The position numbers and the translations under genes are program-made. A stretch of DNA of 39,274 bases from Burkholderiaceae bacterium. Lineage in GTDB: Bacteria; Pseudomonadota; Gammaproteobacteria; Burkholderiales; Burkholderiaceae_A. Below are positions 495 to 23,479 of this stretch, piece by piece (within the stretch, counting starts at the first letter, position 1; each line of letters opens with the position of its first letter). The notes beneath the pieces were generated by a model. That model searched no databases, was not told the DNA's origin, and worked only from the letters and a program-made list of their open reading frames with translations. The stretch lies in NCBI GenBank assembly GCA_018882795.1, contig VERJ01000016.1, positions 1-39,274 of the forward strand, written 5' to 3'.

Positions 495-3400
495 TCAGAC
501 CTCCGGTGCCTGCAGCATGGAAAGAATGACCTCCGGCAGCAGATTGCCCTGGGCCATCATGGCGCCGGCAGCCTGCTGGCCGATCTGGATGCGCACCAGG
601 CGCGCCATCTCGCTTGCGTAGTCCACATCCTGAAGGCGGGATTTTGTATCGATCAGATTCTCCGACACGCCCTCTAAGTTGTTGATGGCGTATTCCAGTC
701 GCTGCTCCTGAGCGCCAAGGCCAGTCCGAAAACGACTGACCCGATCAATCACCGATTCCACAAAATTCTGCAGCTGAGAAAAATTGGAATCTGATAATGA
801 AGCTTCGGTGTTGTCATCAATTATATCCAGCAGATTGGCCAGATTATCGAAGGCCACCTTGTCGCTGCCGACATTCTGATTGGCGCCAGTGATGCGCACA
901 TCTTTAAACCCCGATATGGATGTCTGCTCTCCGGCACTCGCACTCGCCCCAAGCTGCACGGTGGCGGCTTGCCGCAGACTGCCCACCGACAGCGTCGTGA
1001 CAGGCGACACATAGGCTGAAAAAGAGTCGTCGTTTACCGTAATGACCCGGCTATTTTTTAATGCAAAAGAAAAACCAAGATCATCAAACCGGAATGTCTT
1101 AGAAGCGCCGGGGGCAATCTCCCCGACCGCCAAGCTTTGCGATTTACCAACAATCCCGGTATTGGCCATGGCCGTCACGGTGATCACACCAGGGTTGGCG
1201 ATATCTCGCACAGTAACGGCGATATCATCAATGCCCACCTTAGCGGGCTCCTGCATGGTGATCTGATTGCCCGATACCGTAACCCGCGTGGCAGCGGGAA
1301 ATTCCGGGCTATCGTTGGCGGTGGTGTTATTGGGATAGTCCTGGGCGATCAACCCCGCAAGCCGATTGGCCACACTGGCAGCGTCATCGGTGGACTCGAC
1401 CCGCACTGCATATTCTCGTCCACCAAAGGCAATCTCGACTGACCGGCCCACCGCAAGATCCGCCTGCTGAATAGTAATCACACGATCAGAGCGATCGCGA
1501 TTCTGTGAAGAGACTGAAGTCTCCAGCCCCCCAATGTTGGAACCCTCTACCAGACGATCGGTGATCACATTGCCTGGGGTGATAGTGAAGTACACCTTAT
1601 CGCCCACCTTGGGGGTTCCGGTCAGATTTAACTCAACCCTATCCCCGGTATCCAGAGTCAACCAACCCGAGGCATAAGTGGCTGCCAGCACAGAGTCTCC
1701 ATAAGCGTTTTTAATGGTGTAGTTGAATGCCCCAACGCCTGTAGCCCCGTTGTACTCCAGTAAATAATCGCCCGCAGGCAGACCACCCACCACCGCAAAG
1801 GTGGTGTTGGTCACACCTTCCGGCCGCTCGTAGCTGGCTGTGGTTGTTCCACCACTCACCGCAATGGTCATGTAATCACCCGAAAGCGGACTGCGGGTTG
1901 CAGTAGGGCTTGACTCGTCAACGCCGCGATAACGAAATACTTCCAAGGTTTTTGTGGCGTAGCTCAATACTGTGGATGATCCACCGGCACCCGTGAGGTA
2001 ACCTGATGGTGTTGCACCCTGCGCGATCCAACTCGAACCATTGTAGGCATAAGAATAATTTCCAGACTGCAGTGGCACACCCGACATCGTGCTTGTGCGG
2101 CTGGAGAAGTCGTTGCTACTGGAATTAAAGGTGATGTAATCGTCAGCGCCAAGTCCAGCATTCACGGCAGTGAAATTAACCCGATCCCCTTCTTTGGGAG
2201 TGCCCGAAAAATTCAATGACACCCAATCTTTGCCAGCACCGGTATATAGCGAATTGCCACTCATGTAAGCACCGGCGCCACCACCACTTACTAATGACCA
2301 GGCATTCCCGTTGTAGTAAATCTGATAGCCCCCACCTTCCATGTCATAGGCGCTTCCTGAAACCCCTGTTACACCGACTGATCTCGTGCGTGTTGCGGTA
2401 ATACCACTTGAATCTTCATTCGACGTGAAACTGATGTTGTCGCCTGAATACGAATAGTTTGTTGCCCATGAAACACTGCGCTGCGTATCTAGGCTAAGGG
2501 TATTGGTTGCCTGGTTATAAGATCCTGTAACCCCCGCTGGCTCACCGCTCACGCTCCACGAAGTTCCGCCTAGATAAGAAACGGTATATGTTGCATTGAT
2601 GCCGGTTAAATCTCCTGCACCTACAACGGCGCGGGTGCTGTTATAGATCTGGCCATTTGCCTGGGTCACAGTTGAATCGGGCTCTCCGATTCCAAATTCT
2701 GGCGGGCCAATCCTGAACTGAATGCGATCCCCAGGTTTCGGGGTGCCTGTTAAGGTGACATTGACCGAATTGCCTGGGCTGGTGGTCAACACGGAGCCGT
2801 TAAAAGAAGCGTTGCCCGGCACAGCGCTGGATAAAAACGTCCAAGCACGTGGATCCGTGTAGGCGTAACCGCTATCGTTAAACAGAATGTCATAGTAGCC
2901 GTCGTCTAACCGCCCGCCCACACCCCACACAGCAGCCGTAATACCTTGCGCAGGCCTCACGATCGGGTTTTGGGTCCCCGCAACTGTTTCGCTCACTGTG
3001 AGCTGGATATTGCTCATGCCCATGCCCAGCGCGGAATTGAACTGAATGGCCCCGTTCGATGCCGAGACGGCGGAAGCCCCCGACCCAAAATGCTGACCGA
3101 TTCTGCTGGCAAGCTTTGAGGCAATGGTGGTGCGAGTGTCATCGGTGCCCGCAATCAGTGAGAACTGCGTGAAGTTTTCTGGGTTGCCCACATCCACGGT
3201 GAACTTGCGTCCTGCGATCACATCAAAGTCATTGATGGTGATGAATCGGCTTGCGTTCGATGTAAACGCCACCGGGGATACAGTGGATGCAATCTGCGAT
3301 ACAACATCGGTCTGAAGGGGGCGATGCACTTCATAAGAAAGGTCCGCAATTGTTCGACCAGAGTCGCTCTCTAAAGTAACAATTGATCCCGCACGAACAG

Positions 3401-4628
3401 CATTGGCGGGGTAATCCGCCGCCAGTTGGCGGCGCAGGCCCTCGGCAACGGTTTCCGTAGTGGAATCACTGGCCACAATATAAGCATAGGCCTTGCCGTT
3501 CACGTTAAGGGTGATGCGATTGCCTTCGCCCAGATCCTGTGCGGTGGGAATGATTGTGCGCGCATAGTCGTGGCGGTTAAATGTTTGAGCACCCACAGTC
3601 ACCGCAGTCAGTGGACTGCTGTCCACATTTTTTCCAAAGAATCGGACTGTTCCTGCTGTTGCCACGGCATCGGGCTTGGAAAACTTTCCATCTCTTCCGC
3701 CCAAGCCATCACTGTCAACATCCGCAGCCATGCCCACGGCATTGGCGGCGTTGTATTGGGCTGCCATTCCTGCAGCGATATTGGTGTAGGCCAACACACT
3801 GTTGCCAGCGACCGCCGCGCTTAATCCATCGTTATTTGGAGTGAGGTTCTCTGCAGTGACCGTATAAGTCTGAACTAGCGTGCGATCTGGGTTATCGCCC
3901 TTCACCGTAAAACGAATCTGGTCTCCGGCTTCATAAATGCCAGAGAGCGTAATCACGGCCTCTGAAGTGCCCGATCCTGTGACCGTTGCTGCCTGAGAGT
4001 TTTCGATGCCTTCGGTGCCATCAAGTTTGGTTGTGGCCCGAGACTTCTGATTAGAGATTGCCGTGGGCTTGCTAAACGAAATGGCATAGTCGCCCGCATT
4101 GGCGCTAAACACGTCCAGGTTTTCGACCGTCAATCCATTTAGGATTGATGCGCCTTCTGCCAACTGGGTACGATCAAAAAAAGAGGCCGCAATTGCCGAG
4201 CCCAGAGAGTTCTTCAGTAGTGCGTTGGCGTTATATGCAGCCTGCTCTGCGGTGGCATTGATGCCCGTCCGCAGTGCCGAGATCTCATCGGAAATGGCGC
4301 GCTTTTGATCCAGGGATAAAGATCCATTGCGAGCCTGGGTGGCCAATTCCTTCATGCGACGCAGCATGTCCGTCACCTGGCCAAGCGAGCCATCGGCCGC
4401 CTGCACCATCGAAATCACCTGATGGGCGTTGCGGACACTCTGCCCAAGGCCAGTCACCTGGGAACGAATCTGCTCTGAAATGCCCAGGCCAGCCGCATCA
4501 TCCCCAGCCCGGTTAATCCGCAACCCTGAGGAGAGACGCTCTACGGCGTTGGACAGGGCACTCTGGCCGAGCGCCAACTCGCGCTTGGCGAAAACCGCTG
4601 CCGGAACATGATTTAAAGAAACCGCCAT
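495..4628 (-). CDS. Giant flagellin with repeat-rich insert, 1377 aa
   Basis: This is a filament subunit. Residues 1-170 match the flagellin D0/D1 region (VERLSSGLRINRAGDDAAGLGISEQ) and the last ~130 residues match the C-terminal D1/D0 helices (LEYAINNLEGVSEN, IQIGQQAAGAMMAQ). Ordinary flagellins are 280-550 aa, so about 1000 residues are inserted in the surface D2/D3 region. The insert holds a ~115-aa module beginning near residues 357, 462 and 1049 (R-x-I-x-I-x-x-x-D, then G and a VG-x-x-E pattern). Between the second and third copies lies a ~480-aa block with three GTPKxGD(R/K) motifs near 629, 809 and 1004. No Cys was seen. The ATG at 4628 was chosen because AAGGGGG precedes it by six bases; a GTG seven codons upstream lacks that. 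A sigma-28-type promoter and a leader hairpin precede it. It is paralogous to the 998-aa flagellin. Confidence 0.93.
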   Translation of the reverse strand: MAVSLNHVPAAVFAKRELALGQSALSNAVERLSSGLRINRAGDDAAGLGISEQIRSQVTGLGQSVRNAHQVISMVQAADGSLGQVTDMLRRMKELATQARNGSLSLDQKRAISDEISALRTGINATAEQAAYNANALLKNSLGSAIAASFFDRTQLAEGASILNGLTVENLDVFSANAGDYAISFSKPTAISNQKSRATTKLDGTEGIENSQAATVTGSGTSEAVITLSGIYEAGDQIRFTVKGDNPDRTLVQTYTVTAENLTPNNDGLSAAVAGNSVLAYTNIAAGMAAQYNAANAVGMAADVDSDGLGGRDGKFSKPDAVATAGTVRFFGKNVDSSPLTAVTVGAQTFNRHDYARTIIPTAQDLGEGNRITLNVNGKAYAYIVASDSTTETVAEGLRRQLAADYPANAVRAGSIVTLESDSGRTIADLSYEVHRPLQTDVVSQIASTVSPVAFTSNASRFITINDFDVIAGRKFTVDVGNPENFTQFSLIAGTDDTRTTIASKLASRIGQHFGSGASAVSASNGAIQFNSALGMGMSNIQLTVSETVAGTQNPIVRPAQGITAAVWGVGGRLDDGYYDILFNDSGYAYTDPRAWTFLSSAVPGNASFNGSVLTTSPGNSVNVTLTGTPKPGDRIQFRIGPPEFGIGEPDSTVTQANGQIYNSTRAVVGAGDLTGINATYTVSYLGGTSWSVSGEPAGVTGSYNQATNTLSLDTQRSVSWATNYSYSGDNISFTSNEDSSGITATRTRSVGVTGVSGSAYDMEGGGYQIYYNGNAWSLVSGGGAGAYMSGNSLYTGAGKDWVSLNFSGTPKEGDRVNFTAVNAGLGADDYITFNSSSNDFSSRTSTMSGVPLQSGNYSYAYNGSSWIAQGATPSGYLTGAGGSSTVLSYATKTLEVFRYRGVDESSPTATRSPLSGDYMTIAVSGGTTTASYERPEGVTNTTFAVVGGLPAGDYLLEYNGATGVGAFNYTIKNAYGDSVLAATYASGWLTLDTGDRVELNLTGTPKVGDKVYFTITPGNVITDRLVEGSNIGGLETSVSSQNRDRSDRVITIQQADLAVGRSVEIAFGGREYAVRVESTDDAASVANRLAGLIAQDYPNNTTANDSPEFPAATRVTVSGNQITMQEPAKVGIDDIAVTVRDIANPGVITVTAMANTGIVGKSQSLAVGEIAPGASKTFRFDDLGFSFALKNSRVITVNDDSFSAYVSPVTTLSVGSLRQAATVQLGASASAGEQTSISGFKDVRITGANQNVGSDKVAFDNLANLLDIIDDNTEASLSDSNFSQLQNFVESVIDRVSRFRTGLGAQEQRLEYAINNLEGVSENLIDTKSRLQDVDYASEMARLVRIQIGQQAAGAMMAQGNLLPEVILSMLQAPEV

Positions 4629-4656
4629 GCCTGACCCCCTTCGAGACACATTTGCT

Positions 4657-4682: not shown

Positions 4683-4709
4683 TTACGGAAGAATTGGCTA
4701 TGGCGTTTA
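4683..4709 (-). promoter_or_regulatory. Sigma-28 (FliA) promoter of giant flagellin
   Basis: TAAA, exactly 15 bases, then TTCCGTAA. The classical flagellar sigma-28 promoter is TAAA-N15-GCCGATAA. The same TAAA-N15-nYCCGTAw pattern precedes the other two flagellin genes at the same distance from the start codon, which makes chance unlikely. The predicted transcript start is near 4676, giving a leader of ~48 bases. Confidence 0.8.
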
Positions 4710-4753: not shown

Positions 4754-4784
4754 AAAAAAACATCGGGCCACAAGGGGCCCGATG
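4754..4784 (-). terminator. Rho-independent terminator of flaG (first copy)
   Basis: Read on the minus strand, this is a CATCGGGCC / GGCCCGATG stem with a short loop followed by seven T residues. It lies 28 bases after the flaG stop and upstream of the giant flagellin promoter, so it separates the two transcripts. Confidence 0.85.
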
Positions 4785-4811: not shown

Positions 4812-5237
4812 CTAGGCGCGCCGATCAACAAAAAGCCCCTGCAAACCTGGCAATTCCTGGACATTTCGGGCAATTCGCAAGGTTTCATCGGCCGGAATCT
4901 GGCGGACGACCTCCCCGTTATTGGGGTTCAGCACGGTGGTCACGTAGTAACCGGCAGATTCATCCACAAACACATTCAAATCCCGGCCGGATTCGGTCAG
5001 GTAGCCCCGAATCTGGTCTGCAGCACGCTGCATCACTTCCTTACTGGGTTGGGTGAATTCTTCAACCCGCACCTCTGGCCGGGCAGCAGCGGCAAGCTCG
5101 GCAGCCTTGGAAACAACAGCGGGGTCCACCGCCTGGGCGACCTCTGACACCGTATCGGTCGGCTGTCGGGGCGGCACCAAGGGCACCACGCCGGAAGTTT
5201 CAATCAGATTGGATGAATACGCAGAAATGGGGGTCAT
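4812..5237 (-). CDS. flaG: FlaG-family flagellar protein, 141 aa
   Basis: FlaG proteins are small and encoded next to flagellins; they affect filament length or assembly. The conserved C-terminal half (residues ~60-135) is present: SKEVMQRAADQIRGYLTESG, then NVFVDESAGYYVTTVLNPNNG, EVVRQIPADETLRIARNVQE. The N-terminal 60 residues are low-complexity and variable, as usual. GCGAGGA is a plausible ribosome-binding site just before the ATG at 5237. The gene sits between two terminators, so it seems to be its own transcription unit, yet no sigma-28-type promoter was found upstream. It is a paralogue of the next gene (5367-5792), same length, with a nearly parallel C-terminal domain. Confidence 0.9.
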   Translation of the reverse strand: MTPISAYSSNLIETSGVVPLVPPRQPTDTVSEVAQAVDPAVVSKAAELAAAARPEVRVEEFTQPSKEVMQRAADQIRGYLTESGRDLNVFVDESAGYYVTTVLNPNNGEVVRQIPADETLRIARNVQELPGLQGLFVDRRA

Positions 5238-5366: not shown

Positions 5367-5792
5367 TTACGCCCGTTGATTGACGAGCATGCCTCGCATC
5401 TGATCGATGTTGCGGGCAATGCGCAGGGTTTCCTCAGAGGGCAGTGAGCGGACCACCTCCCCCGTCTCGGGATTGACCACCCGGGCCACATACTTGCCCG
5501 TCGACTCATCCAACGTGACGTTAAGGTTCCTGCCTGACTCCCGAAGATAACCCTGGATCTGCTGAGCAGCCACCTGCATCACCTCCTTGGTGGCACGGGC
5601 GTACTGCTCCACATTGACCTCGGCCCTGGCCTTGGCCGCAGCAGCCGCTGCCTCACCGGCAGCGTCCACCTTGGCCTCGGGGGCCTTTTGCTCAACCGGC
5701 GCGCTCTTGGGCTGCTGCACCACCACCTTGGGCTGGACAGCAGGCGTTTGAGGCGCCTGCGCCTGAGCTGGCAAAGCGGATAGGGGGTTCAT
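5367..5792 (-). CDS. flaG: FlaG-family flagellar protein, 141 aa (second copy)
   Basis: The C-terminal FlaG domain is clear: TKEVMQVAAQQIQGYLRESG, NVTLDESTGKYVARVVNPETG, EVVRSLPSEETLRIARNIDQ. The first ~55 residues are rich in Ala, Pro, Gln and Lys and probably disordered. The gene starts 33 bases after the stop of the 998-aa flagellin with AAGAGGA before its ATG, so it is co-transcribed with that flagellin and ends at the strong terminator downstream. This pairing suggests that it serves the 998-aa flagellin, while the other flaG stands alone. Its exact role in filament growth is known only in general terms for the family. Confidence 0.92.
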   Translation of the reverse strand: MNPLSALPAQAQAPQTPAVQPKVVVQQPKSAPVEQKAPEAKVDAAGEAAAAAAKARAEVNVEQYARATKEVMQVAAQQIQGYLRESGRNLNVTLDESTGKYVARVVNPETGEVVRSLPSEETLRIARNIDQMRGMLVNQRA

Positions 5793-5825: not shown

Positions 5826-8822
5826 TTACTTCAAGAGCGCCAAGATCACGTTGGGCATCTGGTTGGCCTGGGCCAACATCGCAGTTGCCGCCTGCTGCAT
5901 GATCTGGGTCTTGGTCAGATTGGCCGTCTCAGCAGCGTAGTCGGTATCCACGATGCGGGAGTTGGCCGCCGTTAAGTTCTCCGACTGGGCCTGGATGTTG
6001 GCAATCGCAAACTCGATCCGGTTTTGCTGGCCACCAAAGTAGCTGCGGAAGTCCGACACCATGGTGATCGCATCCTCGATGCGGTTTTCCAGAGTGGCGA
6101 AGTTGGCTTCCGACAGAGACTCAGTCGTATTAGCCGAGATGGTCGTCAAGGTCTCATGGATCTTATCGAACACTTCCTTCTCAGCGCCCACGTTCTGGTT
6201 CTGACCTGTGACACGGATATCTTTAAAGCCATCCAGAATCACGTTATCCCGTGTACCAGCACCCACCTGGAACAATGCCTCACCATCCATCGCAGCTTCA
6301 ACGGCCAGGGTATTGACCTTGGGCGTGAAAGCTTCGAACGAAGCAGCGTTGACCGTAGTCGAGCGGCTGTTGTTTAGGGTGAACGATACGCCAAGGTTGT
6401 CGAAGTCAAACGACTTCGATGCACCCGCGGCAATCGTGCCCACATCAATGCTCTGGCTCGTGCCACCAATACTTGTATCGTTATTGGCCGTGATCGTGAT
6501 CTTGCCAGGGTCCGTGATCTTCTTGACAGATACAGAGATATCCTCAAGACCAAGCTCGCTACCAGCACCGATGGTTATTACATTCCCAGTGTTGTAAACC
6601 CCGGAATTAACGCGGCGCACTACTGCGTCTCCCGCAGTAGAAGCTAAGCTCAAATTTACTGCTGCACTAGCATTAAAAGTAACTGTTGTAGAAGTGGCTG
6701 CTGTAGTTGTTAATCCAGTCGCTAAGGCGCCGGAGTAATCACCATACGATGCACCCGCACCTGAGGTAGCGGCGGCGCCAAGCCCTGACCAAGCCGCTGC
6801 AACTTCCGCTGCAGTAAGGTTTCGACGTGCTGTAAATGTTAGCCCTGCTATTGATACAGAATCACCGGCCGACATACCGGTGCCAAATGTAGCTGTAGCG
6901 CTTCCCGCGGCACTAAATTTTCCAGCTGCAAAGTTAGATACGCTTACAAACGTCGCAGTAGACGAAGATACTGTTCCGGCAACCCTAGCGTAATCGTCAT
7001 CTATGAGACTCGAAAGCCTGTAAGCGACATCTGTAGCCGAGTCACTGGCCCCAACCTTAACGGCGTATTCTTTTTGACCGACCTGCACAGAAACTACGTT
7101 TCCAGGTGTTAAATCAAACTGATTGATAGTGATCGTGCGATCAGCTCGCGCAGTGTTTTTAGCAGTCACACGAGACGATGCCGAAACATCTGCCCCTTCC
7201 ACCATTTCATTGAATGTCAAACTAATATCTGACATTCCCAGCGGTGCAGTACTTCCGGTAACGGTAATTACATGATCATTGACCCCGGCACTTGCGCCAA
7301 CAGCCGTGCCACCATGAGTCGCATTCATCAAAGTGGCCAATCGGGAGGCAACCGTAACCTTGGTGTCAGACGCCCCAACAACTGTAGAAAACTCCGTAAA
7401 GTACTCCGGATTTCCAACTCGAATGGTTGCCTTACGGCCCTCTACAATGTCGAAGTCATTTAAAGTGATGGTGCGATTCGCAGTCGTTGACGTGAGACTA
7501 GGAGCAGATACGGTTGACGCCTGATTTGTAACAGCATTCCCATCCGCTAATCTAACCACACGCAAACTAATATCAGCAGTGCCTAGCGCGAGAGCAGCAG
7601 CCAATTTAATCTGGCCAGTGTTATCTGTACTCCCTGTATTGTCAACCTGCAATACACCATTCGCACCCGCAGCATAATCTTTAATTAACAATGTTTCAAA
7701 ATCTTTTGCAACTTGATTTCGAATCGAGTCAGCCGAACTTTTGTATCCCGCGACTACAGAATATTCTTTAGCACCAATCGTTAAAACAAACTTATTACCT
7801 TCAACAGCATCCTCCGAATTAATATAAATTCGACGCTCTGCGAGGTTAAGTGAGTCACTTGCAACGCTGACATTCTGGCCTGCCGCTGCGCTAGTCACGT
7901 TCAAGGTGGTGGTAAGAGAGACGTTGTCACTCGAGCCCCCAATATAAATCTTATTGTCGACAGCGGTAATACCAAGAGCCTTTCCAGTCGCTGCCTGCGA
8001 GGCCAAATTTAATGCGGCGGCAAGACCAGAAGCAATGAAATTATTCGCACCATTGACGTCAACTGATGTATTGTCGTCATCCGTAGCAGAGACCGTGTAA
8101 CTAGCGGTAATTGTCTGACCCCCAGTGATCGACACGGTAGCCGAGACTACGTCGTTTTGAGCCCAAGCATTGCTTGTACGAGCAATCGTAATTACATTAA
8201 GATTTTGTCCACCAAAGTCTCCAGCGGCCTCAGAGACTTGATTGGCGATCGGGGTCTGGGTGCCAGTAGTGATGGTGTAGGTACCAGCATTGGTGTTCTT
8301 CACGGCCAGGTTTGAGACCGAGATGCCATCTAAGAGCGATGCGCCGTTGACCAACTTGGTGGCATCGGTTGCAGCGGGAACCGCCACCTGTGTACGCAGG
8401 GCGTTCTTCAGAAGTGAAAGATCGTTAAAGGTCGTGCGTTCGGCAATCGAGTTGATTTCGTTTTTCAGAGCGACCAGCTCATCAGAGATAAAGGAACGCT
8501 GGGTGGTCGACAGAGAGTCGTTACGGGCCTGAACCGAGAGCTCCTTCATCCGCTGCAGGATCGAAGAGACTTCGGATAACGAACCTTCAGCCGTCTGCAC
8601 CATGGAGATCGCATCATTGGCGTTACGCAGACCCTGGTTCAAGGAGGTCACCTGGCTTTTGATCTTCTCGGAGATCCCCAGACCAGCTGCGTCATCCTTG
8701 GCGCGATTAATCCGCAGGCCAGAAGACAGGCGCTCTACCGAGGTAGACAGTGCGTTCTGGGCCCCAGACAGATTCTTCTGCGCGTACAGCGAGGCCATGT
8801 TGGTGTTAATTACTGATGCCAT
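5826..8822 (-). CDS. fliC: Large flagellin, 998 aa
   Basis: This is a filament subunit with canonical ends: MASVINTNMASLYAQKNL at the start, RLSSGLRINRAKDDAAGLGI at 31-50 and a C-terminus ending TAMLAQANQMPNVILALLK. The exposed middle (about 175-870) is enlarged. Three tandem modules of about 115 residues begin near 330, 450 and 562, each with R-x-I-x-I-N then a G and VG/IG-x-x-E(Y/F). The third is interrupted near 620-745 by a strand-rich segment with GDSVSIAGLTFTARRNLTAA, a pattern recalled from giant bacterial surface proteins. The middle looks less GC-rich than the ends by eye. The ATG at 8822 has AAGGAG upstream. It leads a flagellin-flaG operon with a sigma-28-type promoter. The canonical termini suggest this is the main flagellin; that is an inference. 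Confidence 0.95.
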   Translation of the reverse strand: MASVINTNMASLYAQKNLSGAQNALSTSVERLSSGLRINRAKDDAAGLGISEKIKSQVTSLNQGLRNANDAISMVQTAEGSLSEVSSILQRMKELSVQARNDSLSTTQRSFISDELVALKNEINSIAERTTFNDLSLLKNALRTQVAVPAATDATKLVNGASLLDGISVSNLAVKNTNAGTYTITTGTQTPIANQVSEAAGDFGGQNLNVITIARTSNAWAQNDVVSATVSITGGQTITASYTVSATDDDNTSVDVNGANNFIASGLAAALNLASQAATGKALGITAVDNKIYIGGSSDNVSLTTTLNVTSAAAGQNVSVASDSLNLAERRIYINSEDAVEGNKFVLTIGAKEYSVVAGYKSSADSIRNQVAKDFETLLIKDYAAGANGVLQVDNTGSTDNTGQIKLAAALALGTADISLRVVRLADGNAVTNQASTVSAPSLTSTTANRTITLNDFDIVEGRKATIRVGNPEYFTEFSTVVGASDTKVTVASRLATLMNATHGGTAVGASAGVNDHVITVTGSTAPLGMSDISLTFNEMVEGADVSASSRVTAKNTARADRTITINQFDLTPGNVVSVQVGQKEYAVKVGASDSATDVAYRLSSLIDDDYARVAGTVSSSTATFVSVSNFAAGKFSAAGSATATFGTGMSAGDSVSIAGLTFTARRNLTAAEVAAAWSGLGAAATSGAGASYGDYSGALATGLTTTAATSTTVTFNASAAVNLSLASTAGDAVVRRVNSGVYNTGNVITIGAGSELGLEDISVSVKKITDPGKITITANNDTSIGGTSQSIDVGTIAAGASKSFDFDNLGVSFTLNNSRSTTVNAASFEAFTPKVNTLAVEAAMDGEALFQVGAGTRDNVILDGFKDIRVTGQNQNVGAEKEVFDKIHETLTTISANTTESLSEANFATLENRIEDAITMVSDFRSYFGGQQNRIEFAIANIQAQSENLTAANSRIVDTDYAAETANLTKTQIMQQAATAMLAQANQMPNVILALLK

Positions 8823-8876: not shown

Positions 8877-8903
8877 ATACGGACATGCCCCGCCGATGGT
8901 TTA
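8877..8903 (-). promoter_or_regulatory. Sigma-28 (FliA) promoter of 998-aa flagellin
   Basis: TAAA, 15 bases, GTCCGTAT on the minus strand. This matches the shared TAAA-N15-nYCCGTAw pattern of the window's three flagellin genes. The predicted transcript start is near 8870, giving a ~48-base leader. Confidence 0.8.
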
Positions 8904-9018: not shown

Positions 9019-9264
9019 ATGCGAACTACCCTTGATATCGACGACCCGATCCTGAAGGATCTAAAGGAGCTGCAGGCCCAAGAGGGCAAAAGCCTGGGCA
9101 GGCTTGCCTCTGACCTGCTGGCTCAGGCGATCAGCGAAAAACGCAAGGCTCACACCCTTGTCTCGGAACCGGCTTTCCACTGGCACGCCCAGTCAATGAC
9201 GCCACGGCTGGACCTGGCGGATAAAGATGCGCTGCTGGACGCCATGGACGATCCAAAAAGATGA
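9019..9264 (+). CDS. Ribbon-helix-helix antitoxin, VapB type
   Basis: This 81-aa protein opens with the MRTTLDIDDPILKDLKEL pattern of ribbon-helix-helix antitoxins: a DNA-binding strand (residues 1-8) followed by two helices. The C-terminal half (HTLVSEPAFHWHA to the end) would be the toxin-binding tail. The stop overlaps the start of the PIN-domain gene by four bases (ATGA), a typical antitoxin-toxin coupling. The likely role is to bind and neutralise the downstream PIN protein and to repress the operon. Confidence 0.85.
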   Translation: MRTTLDIDDPILKDLKELQAQEGKSLGRLASDLLAQAISEKRKAHTLVSEPAFHWHAQSMTPRLDLADKDALLDAMDDPKR

Positions 9265-9698
9265 GCTTTGCTATTGAGACCAATGTCTTGCTCTACGCAA
9301 CGGATGCGTCAAGCCCAAGGCATATCCCCGCTGCCAATTTTTTAAAAAATTGTGCGGAATCGGGTGGTCTGTTCTGTCTGGCATGGCCAACGATCATGGC
9401 TTATCTGCGGATTGCAACCCACCCGAAGATCTTCTCGGCGCCGCTTGCACCGCAGCAAGCCGAGCAAAATATCCAGCAATTATTAACACTCAGACATTGC
9501 AGGGTCATCGATAGCGCGGTAATAGACTTCTGGCAAATCTACACAGTGCTTTCGCGTGAATATCACCCACGGGGCAACCTAGTGCCTGACCTTCAGCTAG
9601 CAGCCATACTGAAAGCCAATGGCATTAAGCGCCTCTACACTTGCGATCGCGACTTTCGTCGATTTGAGTTTTTAGAAGTGATTGATCCCACTCGATAG
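9261..9698 (+). CDS. PIN-domain toxin, VapC type, altered active site
   Basis: This 145-aa PIN-domain protein is of the type paired with RHH antitoxins; VapC toxins are Mg-dependent RNases. The N-terminal strand reads FAIETNVLLYA, where family members have DTN, so the first catalytic Asp is Glu. The motif usually written WPxxxEFLRxxTHP is WPTIMAYLRIATHP here, so the conserved Glu is Ala. The third and fourth acidic sites are present in LVPDLQLAA and TCDRDFRRF. Two of the four metal ligands therefore differ, and the enzyme may be weak or inactive. It is translationally coupled to the antitoxin gene. Confidence 0.85.
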   Translation: MSFAIETNVLLYATDASSPRHIPAANFLKNCAESGGLFCLAWPTIMAYLRIATHPKIFSAPLAPQQAEQNIQQLLTLRHCRVIDSAVIDFWQIYTVLSREYHPRGNLVPDLQLAAILKANGIKRLYTCDRDFRRFEFLEVIDPTR

Positions 9699-9756: not shown

Positions 9757-9783
9757 TAAACAACTAAACCCGCCTGCCCGTAA
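9757..9783 (+). promoter_or_regulatory. Sigma-28 (FliA) promoter of lectin-flagellin
   Basis: TAAA, 15 bases, GCCCGTAA, the third instance of the window's flagellin promoter pattern and the closest of the three to GCCGATAA. The predicted transcript start is near 9790 and the leader ~53 bases. Confidence 0.8.
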
Positions 9784-9794
9784 GTTCACTCGTG

Positions 9795-9813
9795 GGGAAG
9801 TCACTTGCTTCCC
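9795..9813 (+). promoter_or_regulatory. Leader hairpin of lectin-flagellin mRNA
   Basis: GGGAAG and CTTCCC enclose a 7-base loop. The hairpin starts about five bases after the predicted transcript start and ends 29 bases before the ATG, the same placement as in the other two flagellin leaders. Confidence 0.55.
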
Positions 9814-9842
9814 GCTTTGGAGAGTTCAGGAGTGGCTGGCAG

Positions 9843-12311
9843 ATGCAATCTTTAAGTACCAACATCGCTTCGCTTCAGGCGCAGCGCTCACTTGCGACGA
9901 GCCAGAGCTATCTGTCGGAGTCTGTTGAGCGGCTGTCCAGTGGGTTGCGGATTAACCGGGCTAAAGATGATGCGGCAGGCCTTGGGATCTCTCAGGAGCT
10001 TCAGCGCCAGACCCGATCATTTGCCGTAGCCTCACGCAATGCCAATGATGCGATCTCCATGGTGCAGACGGCCGAGGGGGCACTTCAGTCGGTCTCTGAC
10101 ATCCTGATCCGCATGAAGGAGCTCACCACCCAGGGGGCCAATGAGTCGCTCTCTAAGGAGCAGCGCTCCTTTATCACCGCAGAAATTGCCCAACTGCGCA
10201 AAGAGATCAACGCGGTGGCCGAGCGCACCACCTTCAATAACACCAAGCTTCTGACCGGAGACTTCTCCGAGGCCGTACGAGGCGAGTTCATCAATGCCAC
10301 CAAGCTGGATGGAAGCAATAACTCGGTGCTGGGCACCTCCACCATCCGACTGGGTGTCGAGTCCGCCGCAAGCGGCGATAACACCAAATCCCGGTTCTCC
10401 TTTGCCGACATCCAGGTGGATGCTGCGGACGAAGGCAAGTACTCCTTAAGCAACAGTGGGGCCGTGCTGACACTGTCCCGCACGGTGGGTAATAAGACTG
10501 AGACCCAATCCATCACCATCGTCACCGGTACTGCCGGAAAAGATCAGGTCCGGCTCAACGACACCCTCAATGACACGATGACCTTTAACTTCACCGACTT
10601 TGGCGTCTCCATCGTCGTGAAAAATGAGCGCATTGGCAGCAGCGATCGCTCGGTCTCAGAGGTGGCCACCAAGATCTCGGCCATGGGCATCACACCCAAC
10701 GCCGACTATCAAAACAAAGGCTGGAAAGCCGTGTCCGGCGCAGACTGGGCCACCGGAGCAGGAACTCTGAAGGCGGTGATCACCTCGACCGCTGGCCAAG
10801 TCAGAACCACAGCCAATGGCAGTGTTGCGGCGGTTACCGGCTATGCGGCCCTGGGCACCTCAAGCTATAACGCCACAACAGGCCAGTATGAGATGGCCTT
10901 CAAAGGCACCGCCGCCCAGTTAAACACCGCCCTGGCCTCCCTCCAAGTCAACAACACCACAGGTTTGGGTGAAATCGCTATCGATGTCTTGCCCGAGGCA
11001 ATGTCAGTCTTCACCAACCCCACCACAGGCGCAACGTCGTACTACGAGGTGGTGAACTCAGGAAGCATTGTGTGGAGTTCGGCAAGATCTGCAGCGTCAT
11101 CTCGAACATTTAATGGACTGACCGGTTACCTCGCGAATTTAAGCAGCACAAGCGAGAGTAACTTCATACAGTCAAAGCTTAGCAACGACGGCTGGATCGG
11201 AGCGAGCGACCAAGGTACCGAAGGCACTTGGAAATGGATGGATGGTCCCGAGGCAGGTTTAACTTTTTGGGTAGCCAACACAGGGAATGTGTCTGGCGGT
11301 GCCGGACAGGTCACCACGGCGTACTCAAACTGGGCAGGCGGAGAGCCTAACGATGCGGGGGCGACAGGTGAAGACTATGCCTATGCGATCGGCGGCGGAA
11401 ACTGGAATGACTACTCCGCAACCAATGCTGGCCCTACTGCATACATCGTCGAATACGGCGGCGTGAAGGGCATCAACGCCAACACCTCCAAGACGCTGCT
11501 GATTGGCACGCCGGGGTATATCAATGTTGGGGATGCGGTCGAGATTGAGGCGGTGGCCACCACTGGAGTTGGGGCCAATAGTGCGGACACGGGTATTTAT
11601 CGCTTGACCGCTGATACGGCAGCCAAGACCGTGACACTAAAGCGCTTTGATGTCGATGGCGAAACCTTGATGGGATCCGAGACCATCTCCAAGCCCGACG
11701 GGCTGGGTGCAGGCCGCTACACAACCCTGGCCTTTGAGGGTCTTGGTGTGTCGCTCACCATCAGCAACAGCGCAGACCGCGCCATCACCCTGGGGGATCT
11801 TGAGTCGGGACTAGAGAAAGACCTGACGGTGGCCACCAGCCGGATGGCCTCCCTGATCGGCGAAGACGGCCCCAAGTTCCAGACCGGTGTGGCCTCCCGT
11901 AATGATATGGCCGTGGGTGCATTTAGAGACATGCGTCTGGGCAAAAATACCGACGCTGGGCACGGTGAGCTCTTTAACGAGGTCAACGACCTGATCCTGT
12001 CCATGGCAGGAAGCGCCGACCCGGCAACGGCCAGCTTCCAGCGGTTAGAGAACAAAGTCGAAGACATGATCGATGTGGTCTCGGCCCAGCGATCAGACTT
12101 TGGCGCCATCCAGAACCGGCTCACCGCCACGATCAACAACATCACCGAGCAGTACGCCAACCTGACTGCCGCCAAGAGCCAGATCGAAGACACCGACTTT
12201 GCCTGGGAAACCGCACGGCTCACCAAACTGCAGATCGGCCAACAAGCCGCCACCGCCATGCTCGCCCAGGCCAATGCCATCCCCAACGTCATCATGGCAC
12301 TGATCGAGTAA
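9843..12311 (+). CDS. Flagellin with inserted C-type-lectin-like domain, 822 aa
   Basis: The ends are flagellin: MQSLSTNIASLQAQRSLATS and RLSSGLRINRAKDDAAGLGI at the N-terminus, and LQIGQQAATAMLAQANAIPN near the C-terminus. Residues ~300-390 form a strand-rich module (FKGTAAQLNTALASLQVNN) like those in bacterial surface proteins. Residues ~400-540 are a C-type-lectin-like domain: YYEVVNSGSIVWSSARSAA, LTGYLANLSSTSESNFIQ, GWIGASD, WKWMDGPEAG, SNWAGGEPNDAG, GNWNDY, AYIVEY. Candidate calcium/sugar ligands are E501, N503, E510, N522 and D523 (EPN plus WND), spaced almost as in mannose-binding lectins. No Cys is present, so the usual disulfides are absent. The ATG at 9843 has CAGGAG upstream; a GTG 17 codons earlier lies within the leader hairpin. 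No convincing terminator follows. Confidence 0.93.
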   Translation: MQSLSTNIASLQAQRSLATSQSYLSESVERLSSGLRINRAKDDAAGLGISQELQRQTRSFAVASRNANDAISMVQTAEGALQSVSDILIRMKELTTQGANESLSKEQRSFITAEIAQLRKEINAVAERTTFNNTKLLTGDFSEAVRGEFINATKLDGSNNSVLGTSTIRLGVESAASGDNTKSRFSFADIQVDAADEGKYSLSNSGAVLTLSRTVGNKTETQSITIVTGTAGKDQVRLNDTLNDTMTFNFTDFGVSIVVKNERIGSSDRSVSEVATKISAMGITPNADYQNKGWKAVSGADWATGAGTLKAVITSTAGQVRTTANGSVAAVTGYAALGTSSYNATTGQYEMAFKGTAAQLNTALASLQVNNTTGLGEIAIDVLPEAMSVFTNPTTGATSYYEVVNSGSIVWSSARSAASSRTFNGLTGYLANLSSTSESNFIQSKLSNDGWIGASDQGTEGTWKWMDGPEAGLTFWVANTGNVSGGAGQVTTAYSNWAGGEPNDAGATGEDYAYAIGGGNWNDYSATNAGPTAYIVEYGGVKGINANTSKTLLIGTPGYINVGDAVEIEAVATTGVGANSADTGIYRLTADTAAKTVTLKRFDVDGETLMGSETISKPDGLGAGRYTTLAFEGLGVSLTISNSADRAITLGDLESGLEKDLTVATSRMASLIGEDGPKFQTGVASRNDMAVGAFRDMRLGKNTDAGHGELFNEVNDLILSMAGSADPATASFQRLENKVEDMIDVVSAQRSDFGAIQNRLTATINNITEQYANLTAAKSQIEDTDFAWETARLTKLQIGQQAATAMLAQANAIPNVIMALIE

Positions 12312-18297: not shown

Positions 18298-20433
18298 ATG
18301 AAATTGTCCCTGAAATCCCTGCAGATTCCGGGCTTCTCGTCCCAGGCCGTCGCGCCCGCCGTTGTCCTGGCGGTGCTGGCGATGATGCTGGTCCCCCTGC
18401 CGCCTGCGGCGCTTGATGTTCTCTTCACCTTCAACATTGCCGCCTCCATCATGGTGTTGCTGGCGGCCATGCAGATCAAAACCTTTAAGGATTTCATCGC
18501 CTTTCCCACGGTGCTGCTGATCACCACACTGCTGCGCCTGTCGCTCAACGTGGCCTCTACCCGTGTGGTGCTGGCCGAAGGCCACACTGGGCCCGATGCC
18601 GCTGGCGTGGTGATCGAGGCCTTTGGCCAGTTTCTGATTGGTGGCAATTTCGCGATCGGCATTATCGTGTTTCTGGTGATCACGCTGATCAACTTTATGG
18701 TGATCACCAAGGGTGCGGGCCGTGTGGCCGAAGTCTCTGCACGCTTTGCCTTGGATGCTATGCCCGGCAAACAGATGGCCATTGATGCTGATCTGAATGC
18801 CGGCATCATCAAGGAAGATGAAGCGCGCAAACGACGCCAGGAAGTCAGCCAGGAAGCTGATTTTTATGGCTCCATGGACGGTGCATCGAAATTCGTGCGT
18901 GGCGATGCGATCGCTGGCATCGTGATTCTCTTTGTGAATCTTCTTGGTGGCATGTTTGTGGGCCTGGCCCAGAAAGGCCTAGGCTTTACCCAGGCCCTCC
19001 AGACATACGGCACGCTCACCATTGGCGATGGACTGGTTGCCCAGGTGCCAGCGCTGATCATCTCCACCGCCGCCGGTATCCTGGTCACACGCGTGGCCTC
19101 CGATGAGGACCTCTCCGGTCAGGTCTCCAAACAGTTTGAAAATAGCGGCAGTACGCTTTACTTGGTGGGCGGTATTTTGTTCATTCTGGGGCTGATTCCT
19201 GGCATGCCCCATGTGCCATTCATTGGGTTTTCGCTGCTGTTTGCAGGGCTTGGTTATTTGCTGACCCAACGCATGAAAAAAGTGGAGGCCAAGGCAGCCG
19301 CGGAAGCGGCGGTCGTGCCACCCAAAACAGAGTTGGAGTGGTCCGATGTGCCGGTCATTGAGCCGCTTTGCCTGGAGCTGCCCTATCGATTGATTCCTTT
19401 GGTCGATAAAGGCGATGAGAGCGATCTGATCAAGCGCATTCGCGCGATTCGCCGAAAGTTTGTCACCGAGGTGGGGTTCCTTACGCCCTCGGTCCATATT
19501 CGCGACAACCTGCAGTTGCCTGCCGAGACCTATCGGTTCCTGCTCTATGGTGCAGAAATCGGCCGCGGCCAATGTCTGCCCGATAAATTGCTGGCGATCT
19601 ATCCCCAGGGCGACTCTCAGCCCATGGCAGGGATCCAAGTCAAGGACCCCACCTATGGCATGCCAGCGGTCTGGATTGATCGCAGCCAGCGCGATGAGGC
19701 GATCGGCAAGGGCTATACGGTGGTGGAGCCTGCGGTGGTCATGACCACGCACCTGGATCACTTGGTGCGCTCGCACTCGCATGAACTCCTGGGCCGCCAG
19801 GAAACGCAAGACTTGCTGGACCACTTCAAGAGCAACTACCCCAAGCTGATCGAAGACGTGGTGCCCAAGGTCGTTACGGTCGCCAACCTGCAGCGCATTC
19901 TGCAGCTGCTGCTGGAAGAGAACGTGCCCGTGAAGGATCTGCGCACCATTTTGGAAGTCTCCAGCGAGCACTCGGCCATGCTCACTGACCCCGCCAATGT
20001 GCTGGCGCCAGTGCGCTATGCACTTCGCCGCACCATCGTGCAAGAGACCTTCGGCGAGACCAGCGAGTTCAAGGTGCTTGGGGTACACCCTGACTTTGAG
20101 CGCTTGATTGAGCAGACCGTGGGCAATGCCTCTGCCGCACCCGAGGGGGCGATTGAGCCCAGCCTGGCAAGGCTCTTCGGTGAAGAGGTCATCCTTGGCG
20201 TCAATGACATGGAGGCCCTTGGCGTTGCACCAGTGATCCTGACAGGATCCAAGTCTCGACTCACCCTGTCGCGTCTGGCCCGGCGGATCAAACCGCAGAC
20301 CATCGTACTTTCCATGAGTGAGCTGCCCGCCACCGGCAATGTGACCTTCCACAAGATTCTGTGCAACCGTAATGCCCCGGCACAGGGCACGGCCAAGCCG
20401 GTTCAGCAGGCGCAGCCACAGCCCGCCGGTTAA
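18298..20433 (+). CDS. flhA: FlhA, flagellar export gate protein
   Basis: FlhA forms the nonameric export gate of the flagellar type III secretion apparatus. This 711-aa protein has the expected length. The N-terminal half (~1-330) has the multi-helix membrane domain and the family signature around residues 140-175 (GRVAEVSARFALDAMPGKQM, then IDADLNAGIIKEDEARKRR). The C-terminal half is the cytoplasmic ring domain, with YRLIPLVDKGDESDLIKRI and VRYALRRTIVQETFG. It starts the flhA-flhF-flhG-fliA run; flhF begins nine bases after its stop. flhB, often just upstream, is not in this window; instead an unrecognised membrane-protein gene is there. The ATG lies directly after a short palindrome. Confidence 0.97.
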   Translation: MKLSLKSLQIPGFSSQAVAPAVVLAVLAMMLVPLPPAALDVLFTFNIAASIMVLLAAMQIKTFKDFIAFPTVLLITTLLRLSLNVASTRVVLAEGHTGPDAAGVVIEAFGQFLIGGNFAIGIIVFLVITLINFMVITKGAGRVAEVSARFALDAMPGKQMAIDADLNAGIIKEDEARKRRQEVSQEADFYGSMDGASKFVRGDAIAGIVILFVNLLGGMFVGLAQKGLGFTQALQTYGTLTIGDGLVAQVPALIISTAAGILVTRVASDEDLSGQVSKQFENSGSTLYLVGGILFILGLIPGMPHVPFIGFSLLFAGLGYLLTQRMKKVEAKAAAEAAVVPPKTELEWSDVPVIEPLCLELPYRLIPLVDKGDESDLIKRIRAIRRKFVTEVGFLTPSVHIRDNLQLPAETYRFLLYGAEIGRGQCLPDKLLAIYPQGDSQPMAGIQVKDPTYGMPAVWIDRSQRDEAIGKGYTVVEPAVVMTTHLDHLVRSHSHELLGRQETQDLLDHFKSNYPKLIEDVVPKVVTVANLQRILQLLLEENVPVKDLRTILEVSSEHSAMLTDPANVLAPVRYALRRTIVQETFGETSEFKVLGVHPDFERLIEQTVGNASAAPEGAIEPSLARLFGEEVILGVNDMEALGVAPVILTGSKSRLTLSRLARRIKPQTIVLSMSELPATGNVTFHKILCNRNAPAQGTAKPVQQAQPQPAG

Positions 20434-20442
20434 ACTCTCGCC

Positions 20443-21891
20443 ATGGGACCAGAACGCTTTGTCGCCGCCTCCGCTGCTGAGGCCTTAAAACTTGTGCGCC
20501 GGGCACTCGGCCCGGATGCCCTGGTACTGTCGACCAATCAGACCGCCGATGGCGTTGAGATTCTCGCCATCACATCGGATGCCCTGGATCAATTATCGAC
20601 AACAGCCGGGCGCAATGGCCCTGACCAATCAGGCGGCGGATTTGGCGCTGCCAGTGGCGGCAAATCGCTTCTTGCCGATGACATCTACGCCAAGCCTGCA
20701 TCGCGTAGCGCCTCAGGTACTCCGACATTTCCGCATGAACTCGTGATCTCCGATGTGATCAAACCATCGCGTAACCCCGACGGGTCTCCCGTGTACACGC
20801 CTGAGCAGCTTGCTGGCGGCGGTCGCGCAAGAAACCATGAATCGACCCTAGGCAGCCACGCCGGTCGCAGTAGCGGGCGGGAATCGGAAATGGCCGCTAA
20901 TGCATTGGCGGCAGCATCGGCCAATGTTGCCGAGATGAACAAACTCGTGACCGAGATGGCCCAGGTCAAAAACCTGTTGCAGTCTCATCTTGCGGGCAAC
21001 TTCTGGAGCAGTCTGCAGCAAAACGCCCCGACTCATGCAGAGGTGGTGAAGGCCCTGATCAACGCAGGCTTCTCGCCAAAACTCTGCGCCGATATCGTGC
21101 AGGCCATTCCGCGCGAGGGCGACACGGCCGTGTTACTCAAGCGCGTCAGCGACATCCTGGAGGCCTTGATCAAGGTCCGTGACCCCATCACGCTATTTGA
21201 TGAGGGTGGCGTATTCACCTTTATTGGCCCCACCGGCGTGGGAAAAACCACGACCGTGGCCAAGGTGGCCGCCCGCTGCGTGCTGCGATTTGGCCGCAAC
21301 CAGGTCGCCCTGCTCACCACAGACACCTATCGTATCGGCGCCCAGGAACAACTCAAGGTCTTTGCCAAAATTCTCGGGCTGCCGGTGGTCTCCGTGCGCG
21401 ACAGCGACGACCTGGCTGCCAAAATCAAAGAGGCCTCTAAGCGCAAGATTGTGCTGGTTGATACCGCGGGCGTAGGCCAGCGCGACACGCTCATGCTGGA
21501 TCAGGCCCAATTGCTCGCAAAAGGCTCGGGCAATTCTCACCGGATTCTGGTGATGAGTGCCACCACCGATCTGCGCACGCAGGAGGATGTGATCCTGCTG
21601 CAGAACCGTTCCGATGACAAGGAACGAATCAAGAGTGTGATTGTGACGAAGACCGACGAAGCCGCGTTGGTGGCGCCGATTCTGGATTGCCTGATTCGCT
21701 ACGAGCTGCCGCTGCTCTTTATTTCCAACGGTCAACGGGTGCCCGAAGACCTCAACCCACCCAACACACAGTACCTGGCACACAGGGCCATGCATCCTCG
21801 CACGCTGGAAGCTGACCTTGGCCTTGCCTCGGATCAGATTCCTGCAGTGCTTGCTGATAACCTGACGCAATGGTCGAAGACACCAAGCTAG
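20443..21891 (+). CDS. flhF: FlhF, SRP-type GTPase for flagellum placement
   Basis: FlhF is a GTPase of the SRP54/FtsY family that sets the site and number of flagella. This 482-aa protein has the variable basic/low-complexity B region (to ~150), a helical N domain (~150-250) and the NG GTPase core: G1 GPTGVGKTT (262-270), G2 region DTYRIGAQEQL (294-304), G3 DTAG (340-343) and G4 VTKTDEA (~403-409). The first residues (MGPERFVAASAAEALKLVRR) fit the family start. Its 3' end overlaps the flhG-like gene by 22 bases, so the two are translationally linked, as is usual for the FlhF/FlhG pair. Confidence 0.96.
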   Translation: MGPERFVAASAAEALKLVRRALGPDALVLSTNQTADGVEILAITSDALDQLSTTAGRNGPDQSGGGFGAASGGKSLLADDIYAKPASRSASGTPTFPHELVISDVIKPSRNPDGSPVYTPEQLAGGGRARNHESTLGSHAGRSSGRESEMAANALAAASANVAEMNKLVTEMAQVKNLLQSHLAGNFWSSLQQNAPTHAEVVKALINAGFSPKLCADIVQAIPREGDTAVLLKRVSDILEALIKVRDPITLFDEGGVFTFIGPTGVGKTTTVAKVAARCVLRFGRNQVALLTTDTYRIGAQEQLKVFAKILGLPVVSVRDSDDLAAKIKEASKRKIVLVDTAGVGQRDTLMLDQAQLLAKGSGNSHRILVMSATTDLRTQEDVILLQNRSDDKERIKSVIVTKTDEAALVAPILDCLIRYELPLLFISNGQRVPEDLNPPNTQYLAHRAMHPRTLEADLGLASDQIPAVLADNLTQWSKTPS

Positions 21892-22762: not shown

Positions 22763-23479
22763 ATGTCCCAGGCCCGCCGAAACGCATACAAGCAAGCCAG
22801 CACGACCGAGCTTAATGAAATGGTGGCGAAGTACGCTCCCCTCGTGCGCAAACTCGCGTTTCAGGTGGCCTCGCGCCTGCCCCCCAACGTGGTGTTAGAC
22901 GATTTGATTCAAGAAGGCATGATGGGACTGCTGGATGCCATCAAGCGTTATGAACCCCGGCCTGGACTGAACTTCGAGGCCTATGCGCGTTTTCGCATTA
23001 CCGGTGCGATCTACGACAGCTGCCGTGAAAATGACATCCTGCCGCGCAATCAGCGTGACAAGCTCTCGGAACTCGAAAAAGCATTGCGTCGGCTGGAACA
23101 GGAATTGGGCCGCACGCCGACAGAGCAGGAAATCGCTGAGGCCTGCAATCTCTCGATTGATGAATACCACCAGACACTGGACACCATGGTGGGCATGACT
23201 GCCATTGATGATGTGCCCGAGCATCTATTGCCCATTGCAGAGGGCGCCGACCCCTCGCAGATCACATCCTTCAAGCAAATTGCAAATCAGCTCTCTAGTG
23301 TGATTAAGGACCTCCCGGAAAAAGAACGCATGGTGGTGGCCCTGCACTACCAGGAAGATCTGAGCTTTCGGGAAGTCGCCTACGTGATGGACCTGACGCC
23401 TGGCCGCATCAGCCAGATCCACACACAGGCCATGGTGCGTATTCGGGCACACCTGGGCAATGACCCGACTTTTCGATAA
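22763..23479 (+). CDS. fliA: FliA, flagellar sigma-28 factor
   Basis: FliA directs RNA polymerase to late flagellar promoters such as flagellin genes. This 238-aa protein has the expected size and regions: region 2 (YAPLVRKLAFQVASRLPPNV, DDLIQEGMMGLLDAIKRYEP, FEAYARFRITGAIYD), region 3 (LEKALRRLEQELGRTPTEQE) and region 4 (LPEKERMVVALHYQEDLSFR, then DLTPGRISQIHTQA). It is the last gene of the flhA run, 26 bases after the flhG-like gene. It ends eight bases from the convergent flgN stop. Its anti-sigma factor FlgM is encoded just beyond on the other strand, and the three flagellin promoters in this window are its likely targets. Confidence 0.97.
   Translation: MSQARRNAYKQASTTELNEMVAKYAPLVRKLAFQVASRLPPNVVLDDLIQEGMMGLLDAIKRYEPRPGLNFEAYARFRITGAIYDSCRENDILPRNQRDKLSELEKALRRLEQELGRTPTEQEIAEACNLSIDEYHQTLDTMVGMTAIDDVPEHLLPIAEGADPSQITSFKQIANQLSSVIKDLPEKERMVVALHYQEDLSFREVAYVMDLTPGRISQIHTQAMVRIRAHLGNDPTFR

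Follow-up and report, generated by a model that had tools for sequence, protein, structure and literature searches.

A 1377-residue flagellin with a modular insert, and related modules in other flagellar axial proteins of its family

The window analysed here, the 39,274-nucleotide contig VERJ01000016.1 of a Burkholderiaceae bacterium (assembly GCA_018882795.1; contig C66 in our numbering), carries three flagellin genes, F1, F2 and F3. Our subject is F1, which lies on the minus strand at 495-4628 and encodes 1377 amino acids (aa), nearly three times the size of a textbook flagellin and above the 1000 aa that delimit giant flagellins. A preliminary description of the locus had given the same coordinates and length, and both are borne out; translation starts at ATG 4628 and the stop codon ends at 495, and an upstream GTG at 4649 extends the mechanical open reading frame to 1384 aa. 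The source genome measures 2.03 Mb in 85 contigs and is 99.8% complete. F1-type genes are also present in 'Betaproteobacteria bacterium WB4_1_1048' and 'Burkholderiales bacterium LSUCC0115'; the latter, a coastal isolate, belongs to the MWH-UniPo clade (PMC6952679), so that the host is an aquatic betaproteobacterium of the same family. F1 is laid out as follows.

495..4628, minus strand: F1, giant flagellin, 1377 aa (Flagellin_N 6.9e-34, Flagellin_C 2.3e-17; orthologues 74% and 46% identical)
4098..4628, minus strand: D0/D1 N-terminal core, residues 1-177 (Pfam)
3711..3968, minus strand: GD module, residues ~221-306 (FliD-seeded profile 30.6 bits, shuffled maximum 9.9)
3294..3596, minus strand: M1, residues ~345-445 (repeat statistics, M profile)
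2961..3284, minus strand: M2, residues ~449-556 (repeat statistics, M profile; AlphaFold2 M2+U1 model, pLDDT 75.5)
1569..2945, minus strand: U block, U1-U5, residues ~562-1020 (FlgK/FlgL D2-like units, GTPKxGD in U1, U3 and U5)
2697..2945, minus strand: U1, GTPKPGD (motif and profile)
2409..2639, minus strand: U2, degenerate (profile)
2154..2393, minus strand: U3, GTPKEGD (motif and profile)
1845..2111, minus strand: U4, degenerate (profile)
1569..1817, minus strand: U5, GTPKVGD (motif and profile)
1176..1520, minus strand: M3, residues ~1037-1151 (repeat statistics, M profile)
498..863, minus strand: D1/D0 C-terminal core, residues 1256-1377 (Pfam)

A Pfam scan finds only flagellin ends above cut-off: Flagellin_N covers residues 6-140 (E 6.9e-34; 117.3 bits against a cut-off of 26.6) and Flagellin_C residues 1290-1372 (E 2.3e-17; 63.5 bits against 23). 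A match to the thioester domain TED (E 0.065) fell below its cut-off and was dismissed, and the domain scans recognised no peptidase, other enzyme or binding domain in F1. The protein is a flagellin rather than FlgL, scoring up to 161.5 bits with flagellin subfamily models against 89.5 bits with the FlgL model TIGR02550 (cut-off 127.2), although the flagellin subfamily cut-offs (e.g. 352) are likewise unreached; a separate FlgL gene lies on contig C26 of the same genome. F1 is a candidate for export and polymerisation into the filament.

Between the intact ends sits an insert of approximately 1080 residues (put at approximately 1000 in the preliminary description), in the order GD - M1 - M2 - [U1-U5] - M3. 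In shuffle tests its repeats stand above chance, with z-scores of 7.4 for M1/M3, 10.7 for M2/M3, 3.6 for M1/M2, 10.3 for U1/U3, 10.0 for U1/U5 and 8.6 for U3/U5; none of 500 shuffles matches the score of U1/U3, U1/U5, U3/U5, M1/M3 or M2/M3, so that repeat structure is indeed found on self-comparison. The U units, of approximately 80 aa each, number five rather than the three first described. Three carry GTPKxGD, at residues 628, 809 and 1004 (the first had been placed at 629, the other two correctly), and U2 and U4 lack it. Pairwise, the kinship of these degenerate units to U1 and U5 is unclear (U1/U2 z 0.2, U1/U4 0.0, U2/U5 0.1, U4/U5 2.5), and the other pairs in which they take part give z 3.9 (U2/U3), 4.5 (U3/U4) and 1.8 (U2/U4). 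A five-unit profile finds five U units in each of the three orthologues, from which it was itself built.

The M module had been described as common to F1 and the 998-aa flagellin, here F2, and profiles made from F1 indeed find three copies and a further fragment there, as well as three copies in a 1103-aa flagellin of LSUCC0115. The spacing between M2 and M3 is 1 aa in F2 and 3 aa in the F2-like flagellin of LSUCC0115, both of which lack U, versus 480 aa in F1; the U block, correctly placed between M copies 2 and 3 from the outset, is therefore an insertion. Together with the significant repeats and the grouping of F1 with F2 in a tree (below), these linkers uphold the earlier idea of modular growth.

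The U units are distantly related to a domain of the hook-filament junction proteins FlgK and FlgL, the D2-like domain, a likeness that the preliminary description did not contain. Among 300 genomes of the order, the U profile matched 20, two of the family (via F1) and 18 outside it. Fourteen of the outside matches are FlgK by Pfam (4 of 7 proteins in one batch and 10 of 10 in another); beyond these 14 stand a near-identical FlgK-like sequence (G239 locus L064), the match L080, and the sulfatase-like L079 and short L081, which look like chance. Across 321 genomes of the class, 16 matched, 15 of them through frames of 627-781 aa with FlgK-type C-termini, and Pfam confirmed FlgK for all five that were tested. 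Profile comparison of U with five FlgK/FlgL domains, which came from the same U-profile search, gave a probability of 96.6% (E 6.1e-10), against 0.5% for M as a control. The likeness to the D2-like domain (PF21158) includes the GTPxxGD end motif; junction proteins have it as an accessory domain, whereas F1 holds five copies in a flagellin. Against the Protein Data Bank (PDB), the U profile found an antibody chain best (E 0.0043), followed by FlgK 4ut1 (0.094) and FlgL 5ziz (1.4), which is suggestive only. In an AlphaFold2 model of M2+U1 (pLDDT 75.5; 14 alignment rows, none of them FlgK or FlgL), the U1 part aligns to the FlgL structures 5zj0 and 5ziz (PMC6155364) with Z 4.7 and 4.5 and rmsd 3.1 and 4.1 over 81 and 86 residues, values below 8 that may reflect a common arrangement; Foldseek with this model returned no match under E 0.001.

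Domains of phage tails and sheaths are the best matches to the M part of the same model (Z 10.2 to 8), followed by FliC of Pseudomonas aeruginosa (7.7) and FliD (about 4-5). M as modelled thus folds like the outer domains of flagellin and FliD, but the phage tail likeness is better, so this may be a common fold. Among PDB sequences the M profile found nothing significant (best, a phage tail sheath, E 0.055), and profile comparison of M with GD gave a probability of 31.9%. M, though not GD, also matches an 8630-aa frame of another genome (G422 contig C1; seven matches listed), and a 16429-aa frame (G159 contig C224) has one weak M-like match; both frames are probably giant surface proteins.

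The GD profile, seeded only from FliD repeats of two genomes, G003 and G004, matches the host's own hook protein (93.2 and 53.4 bits), F1 (30.6), both F1 orthologues, FliD of LSUCC0115, FlgL of G004 (39.9) and a 1871-aa flagellin of G022 (29.9), against at most 9.9 bits in 1000 shuffled proteins. Over 61 genomes, 12 matched, all of the same family, and none of the 35 from other families. The 29 places found fall in FliD (8), FlgE (2), F1 (3), FlgL (1), FlgK-type proteins (3) and other flagellins (12), that is, all in flagellar axial proteins, although one FlgK-type frame (G022) was assigned solely from its length and position; ten of the 29 belong to the profile itself and 19 are independent, and a sample of 61 genomes leaves room for GD in other proteins elsewhere. 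One U unit is present in FliD of G003 and one in that of G004.

The hook protein of the host is itself enlarged and carries related modules, again a point absent from the preliminary description. This FlgE of 1033 aa (G000 contig C26, L136:3376-6477, minus strand) has two GD modules, at the scores given above, and a significant M module (24.6 bits; 23.7 with an F1-only M profile, shuffled maximum 7.9). Against FlgE models it scores at most 248.6 bits, short of the cut-offs for full length, and the FlgEFG subfamily is above cut-off. In the family, FlgE_D2 frames are 708-1730 aa in 10 of 13 matching genomes (the others: G019 396, G003 336, G005 355), and two hook proteins of 1723 aa are confirmed by Pfam; in other families, 25 of 35 genomes match, with frames of 398-684 aa. 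G019, the only member of the family with a small flagellin (332 aa), also has a small hook protein (396 aa). Flagellin and hook frame lengths correlate with rho 0.65 overall (n=31), 0.76 in the family (n=9) and 0.13 in other families (n=22), these being open-frame lengths from related genomes, for which P values are not independent tests. Dropped from this comparison were G003 and G005, whose hook frames may be fragments, G011, with a hook frame of 711 but no flagellin, G012, without a hook match, G023, with a hook frame of 1071 and conflicting flagellin frames (339 by the N-terminal and 1149 by the C-terminal match), and, from other families, G027, G044 and G059.

Among the junction proteins, FlgK reaches 1241 and 1245 aa in two g3 genomes and FlgL up to 804 aa in the family; the host's own FlgK has 497 aa and no D2-like domain. 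The cap protein FliD has 969 aa in the host and 970 aa in LSUCC0115, and G003 has one of at least 1070 aa; elsewhere in the family its size is ordinary, and best matches in other families are 449-704 aa. A family-wide relation between flagellin and cap size was tried and rejected (rho 0.09, n=10; yet 0.55 in other families, n=21). The host's FliD (L059:1531-4440, minus strand) has other tandem repeats of ~100 aa where its sisters have GD and U.

F1 is under purifying selection, and its middle U units evolve fastest. Compared with the G004 orthologue, the core, GD and M segments show a dN/dS of 0.02-0.09 and U2-U4 one of approximately 0.41, a soft estimate because dS is saturated in places and the U2-U4 alignment uncertain; no values were obtained for U1 and U5. 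Identity to the same orthologue is 84-92% in core, GD and M, 70% in U1, 76% in U5 and 30% in the U2-U4 region, where the alignment is again uncertain. The full F1 architecture occurs in 3 of 26 family genomes. Flagellin frames above 1000 aa occur in 12 of the 26, up to 1896 aa, while the longest in the 35 genomes of other families is 708 among the matches listed; giant flagellins are therefore a habit of this family, occurring in two distinct lineages of flagellin. When 31 flagellins are compared by their conserved ends in a tree, which includes two long-branched rows, the three F1 proteins group with support 97/90 and F1 joins the F2 type with 93/93 (not starred); F1 to F3 stand together (100/100), apart from the family's other giant flagellins and from other families.

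Upstream of F1, the minus strand reads F2, two FlaG-family genes, a terminator-like hairpin and then F1; F3 is oppositely oriented.

4683..4709, minus strand: sigma28-like promoter of F1 (TAAA-N16-TCCGTA)
4761..4784, minus strand: terminator-like hairpin with T-run, between the second FlaG-family gene (flaG2) and F1
4812..5237, minus strand: FlaG-family gene 2 (PF03646 3.7e-12)
5367..5792, minus strand: FlaG-family gene 1 (PF03646 5.2e-16)
5826..8822, minus strand: F2, 998-aa flagellin with three M modules and no U block (Pfam, M profile)
7524..7871, minus strand: F2 M copy 1 (M profile)
7179..7511, minus strand: F2 M copy 2 (M profile)
6798..7175, minus strand: F2 M copy 3, first part, with a further stretch beyond an insertion (M profile)
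8878..8903, minus strand: sigma28-like promoter of F2
9757..9783, plus strand: sigma28-like promoter of F3 (relaxed pattern)
9792..12311, plus strand: F3, flagellin with C-type lectin-like insert, start probably ATG 9840 (PF00669 4.1e-40, PF00700 1e-22, PF00059 1.9e-6)
18298..20433, plus strand: flhA (PF00771 3.2e-248)
20443..21891, plus strand: flhF-like SRP GTPase, named from its position (PF00448 8.5e-34)
22763..23479, plus strand: fliA, sigma28 (TIGR02479, 222.7 bits, cut-off 189.6)

Because its third M module is broken by a stretch unlike the rest, F2 has grown by an insertion of its own. The pattern TAAA-N16-TCCGTA, derived from the F1 and F2 sites before scanning, has two exact matches in the window, one ahead of F1 and one ahead of F2, and none in 100 shuffles; a relaxed pattern has nine matches against 1.85 expected, the F1 and F3 sites among them, and the G004 orthologue of F1 has the same promoter-like site upstream. 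We take these sites to be putative sigma28 promoters from the sigma28 consensus and from the fliA gene nearby; they are best called sigma28-like. The gene flgA is also found further along the window. The contig ends 494 bases past the F1 stop, and the host's fliD begins at the end of another contig; in both orthologous loci the cap gene fliD directly follows F1.

We propose that F1 is a working late-class flagellin that has grown by modules, a reading to which we assign a probability of roughly 0.6. An F2-like flagellin with three outer M domains would have gained a FlgK/FlgL-type domain, which would then have multiplied to five, and FliA would turn on F1 along with F2 and F3. The chain would run outward via GD, M1 and M2, carry the U block at its outer tip and return via M3; because of this path the filament surface would be a coat of M domains crowned by fast-evolving U units. 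Given such an out-and-back fold, the fastest-changing middle of the F1 sequence would be its outer tip. With F1 as the main subunit a very thick filament is plausible, both from the precedent of giant flagellins and from packing: a filament of F1 alone is estimated at 32-47 nm, a rough figure that is calibrated on published widths and depends on an assumed geometry. Such a thick filament would sit on a widened hook. The likeliest benefit would be stiffness and interlocking in the propeller of a polar flagellum that works under strong load, while phages, grazers or surfaces would shape its variable tip.

Several observations weigh against this proposal. The case for F1 is built on sequence and predicted models; a model of the whole insert from the three orthologues has a mean pLDDT of only 39.7 and was not used, and the Z of 4.7 between U1 and FlgL is weak by the alignment tool's own note. 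F1 has no match to PF21158 at E up to 1, so that U is a distant relative and not a member of that curated family. No U or GD was found in the host's own FliD, FlgK and FlgL, and orthologues of F1 were not found in 23 of the 26 family genomes, several of which are incomplete. Finally, the core ends are weaker in F1 than in F2 (Flagellin_N 117.3 versus 137.6 bits, Flagellin_C 63.5 versus 86.5), and the LSUCC0115 orthologue sits on a long branch in the conserved-end tree.

For these last two reasons F1 could be a minor subunit. It might be restricted in position, for example near the hook or the tip, with F2 as the main subunit and only part of the filament decorated, in which case the filament would not have to be thick throughout; we regard this as a serious competitor, somewhat short of an even chance. 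Besides the more canonical ends of F2, it would fit that F2 and the two FlaG genes precede a promoter of F1's own, that each of the three flagellins has a promoter-like site, and that the ends of F1 vary more among relatives (43%/50%, versus 63% for the first 198 residues of F2). However, F1 keeps both core helices, is under purifying selection and has an F2-like promoter that is conserved in G004.

It is less likely, though worth considering, that the tip block is chiefly an adhesin or recognition surface, serving surface binding or evasion of phages and grazers, with size a by-product of little mechanical role. U2-U4 change fastest of all segments (30% identity to G004 versus 70-92% elsewhere, and the dN/dS contrast above), and the adjoining F3 has a C-type lectin-like domain. 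Yet the saturated dS and uncertain alignment blunt the rate argument, the scans recognised no binding or enzyme domain in F1, and the FlgK/FlgL relatives of U are structural domains.

It is very improbable that F1 is a superfluous copy, silent or in decay, that repeat slippage has enlarged. It is missing from most family genomes and its ends are more divergent than those of F2, but a frame of 4.1 kb has stayed open with the same architecture in three species, with dN/dS well below 1 and a conserved promoter. Least probable of all is the sheathed flagellum that the preliminary description had raised as one meaning of the large insert, for which no evidence was found: neither flagellin size nor any sequence marker here indicates a membrane sheath, and the MotX-like match of the Sel1 protein at 12394-13050 is weak (46.5 bits, far below the cut-off of 330). 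The observation first made at this locus is thus confirmed and its interpretation supported in part.

Returning to F1 as a working flagellin, thick filaments built of giant flagellins have been described before: where the flagellin measured 1020-1190 aa, the filament was at least 30 nm thick (Thomson et al. 2018, PMC6248924). On the published description, the flagellins of Bermanella marisrubri and Oleibacter marinus resemble F1 in exceeding 1000 aa, in their conserved ends and in belonging to marine polar-flagellated Gammaproteobacteria; their outer repeats (DE) enclose a further insert (DX), analogous to M and the U block. Unlike them, F1 has three M copies plus GD, and its insert consists of five FlgK/FlgL-type repeats, whereas DX is described as rich in glycine, lacking internal repeats and having homologues only among Oceanospirillales flagellins; the likeness of M and the U block to DE and DX is one of architecture. 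The host further differs in having three flagellins instead of one, a giant hook and a larger protein.

Three further systems show partial likenesses. The M model aligns to the ridged flagellin of P. aeruginosa PAO1 (FliC 4nx9, Z 7.7 over 85 residues; PMC10256154), where outer-domain contacts stiffen the filament, but its match to domains of phage tails and sheaths is closer (Z up to 10.2). Like the host's FlgE, the 865-aa FlgE of Campylobacter jejuni is enlarged by added outer domains, and added domains broadened a Salmonella hook to about 25 nm (PMC5069557); unlike it, the host's FlgE has 1033 aa, with up to 1723 in the family, and modules common with flagellins. Flagellinolysin, as in F1, has a domain inserted in the hypervariable flagellin region (PMC5595980), but F1 is without its peptidase domain.

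What appears new is the giant hook in this family and, as judged by profile matches, the recurrence of a GD-type module in hook, junction, filament and cap proteins only, among the 61 genomes. A search of open-licence papers found no hook protein above 1000 aa, no modules common to FliD and flagellin, no FlgK-type repeats in a flagellin and no lectin-domain flagellin. Thomson et al. asked (PMC6248924) whether other flagellar parts are correspondingly large where the flagellin is giant; in this host the hook is large, and across the family a large hook frame goes with a large flagellin frame. The whole external flagellum might be enlarged as a set, with outer domains drawn from a common pool restricted to axial proteins (FlgE of the hook reaching 1723 aa, FlgK 1245 or FlgL 804 at the junction, several filament flagellins about 1890 at most, and FliD of the cap, in one lineage, about 970-1070) and with a continuously coated, very thick organelle whose hook, filament and cap match in diameter; we hold this to be nearly an even bet. 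If domains are common to hook, junction, filament and cap, the evolution of the flagellar surface would be a process of the whole organelle and not a peculiarity of flagellin. In LSUCC0115, which is in culture, F1 and F3 have orthologues, next to an F2-like flagellin and a hook protein of 703 aa, so that filament width, composition and swimming are directly measurable.

Some minor observations concern other genes. The lectin-like part of F3 spans about 11118-11417 in its variable region, with PF00059 above cut-off, and the LSUCC0115 orthologue of F3 is 45% identical over its length. The fliD of G004 is split over two frames (L035:8270-11558, minus strand), through either a sequencing error in the metagenome assembly or a real break. 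Between two flagellin genes of the window lies a PIN-domain gene (9261-9698, plus strand; PF01850, E 1.6e-5), and a short frame ahead of it, at about 9037-9264 on the same strand, reads by eye like a VapB-type antitoxin.

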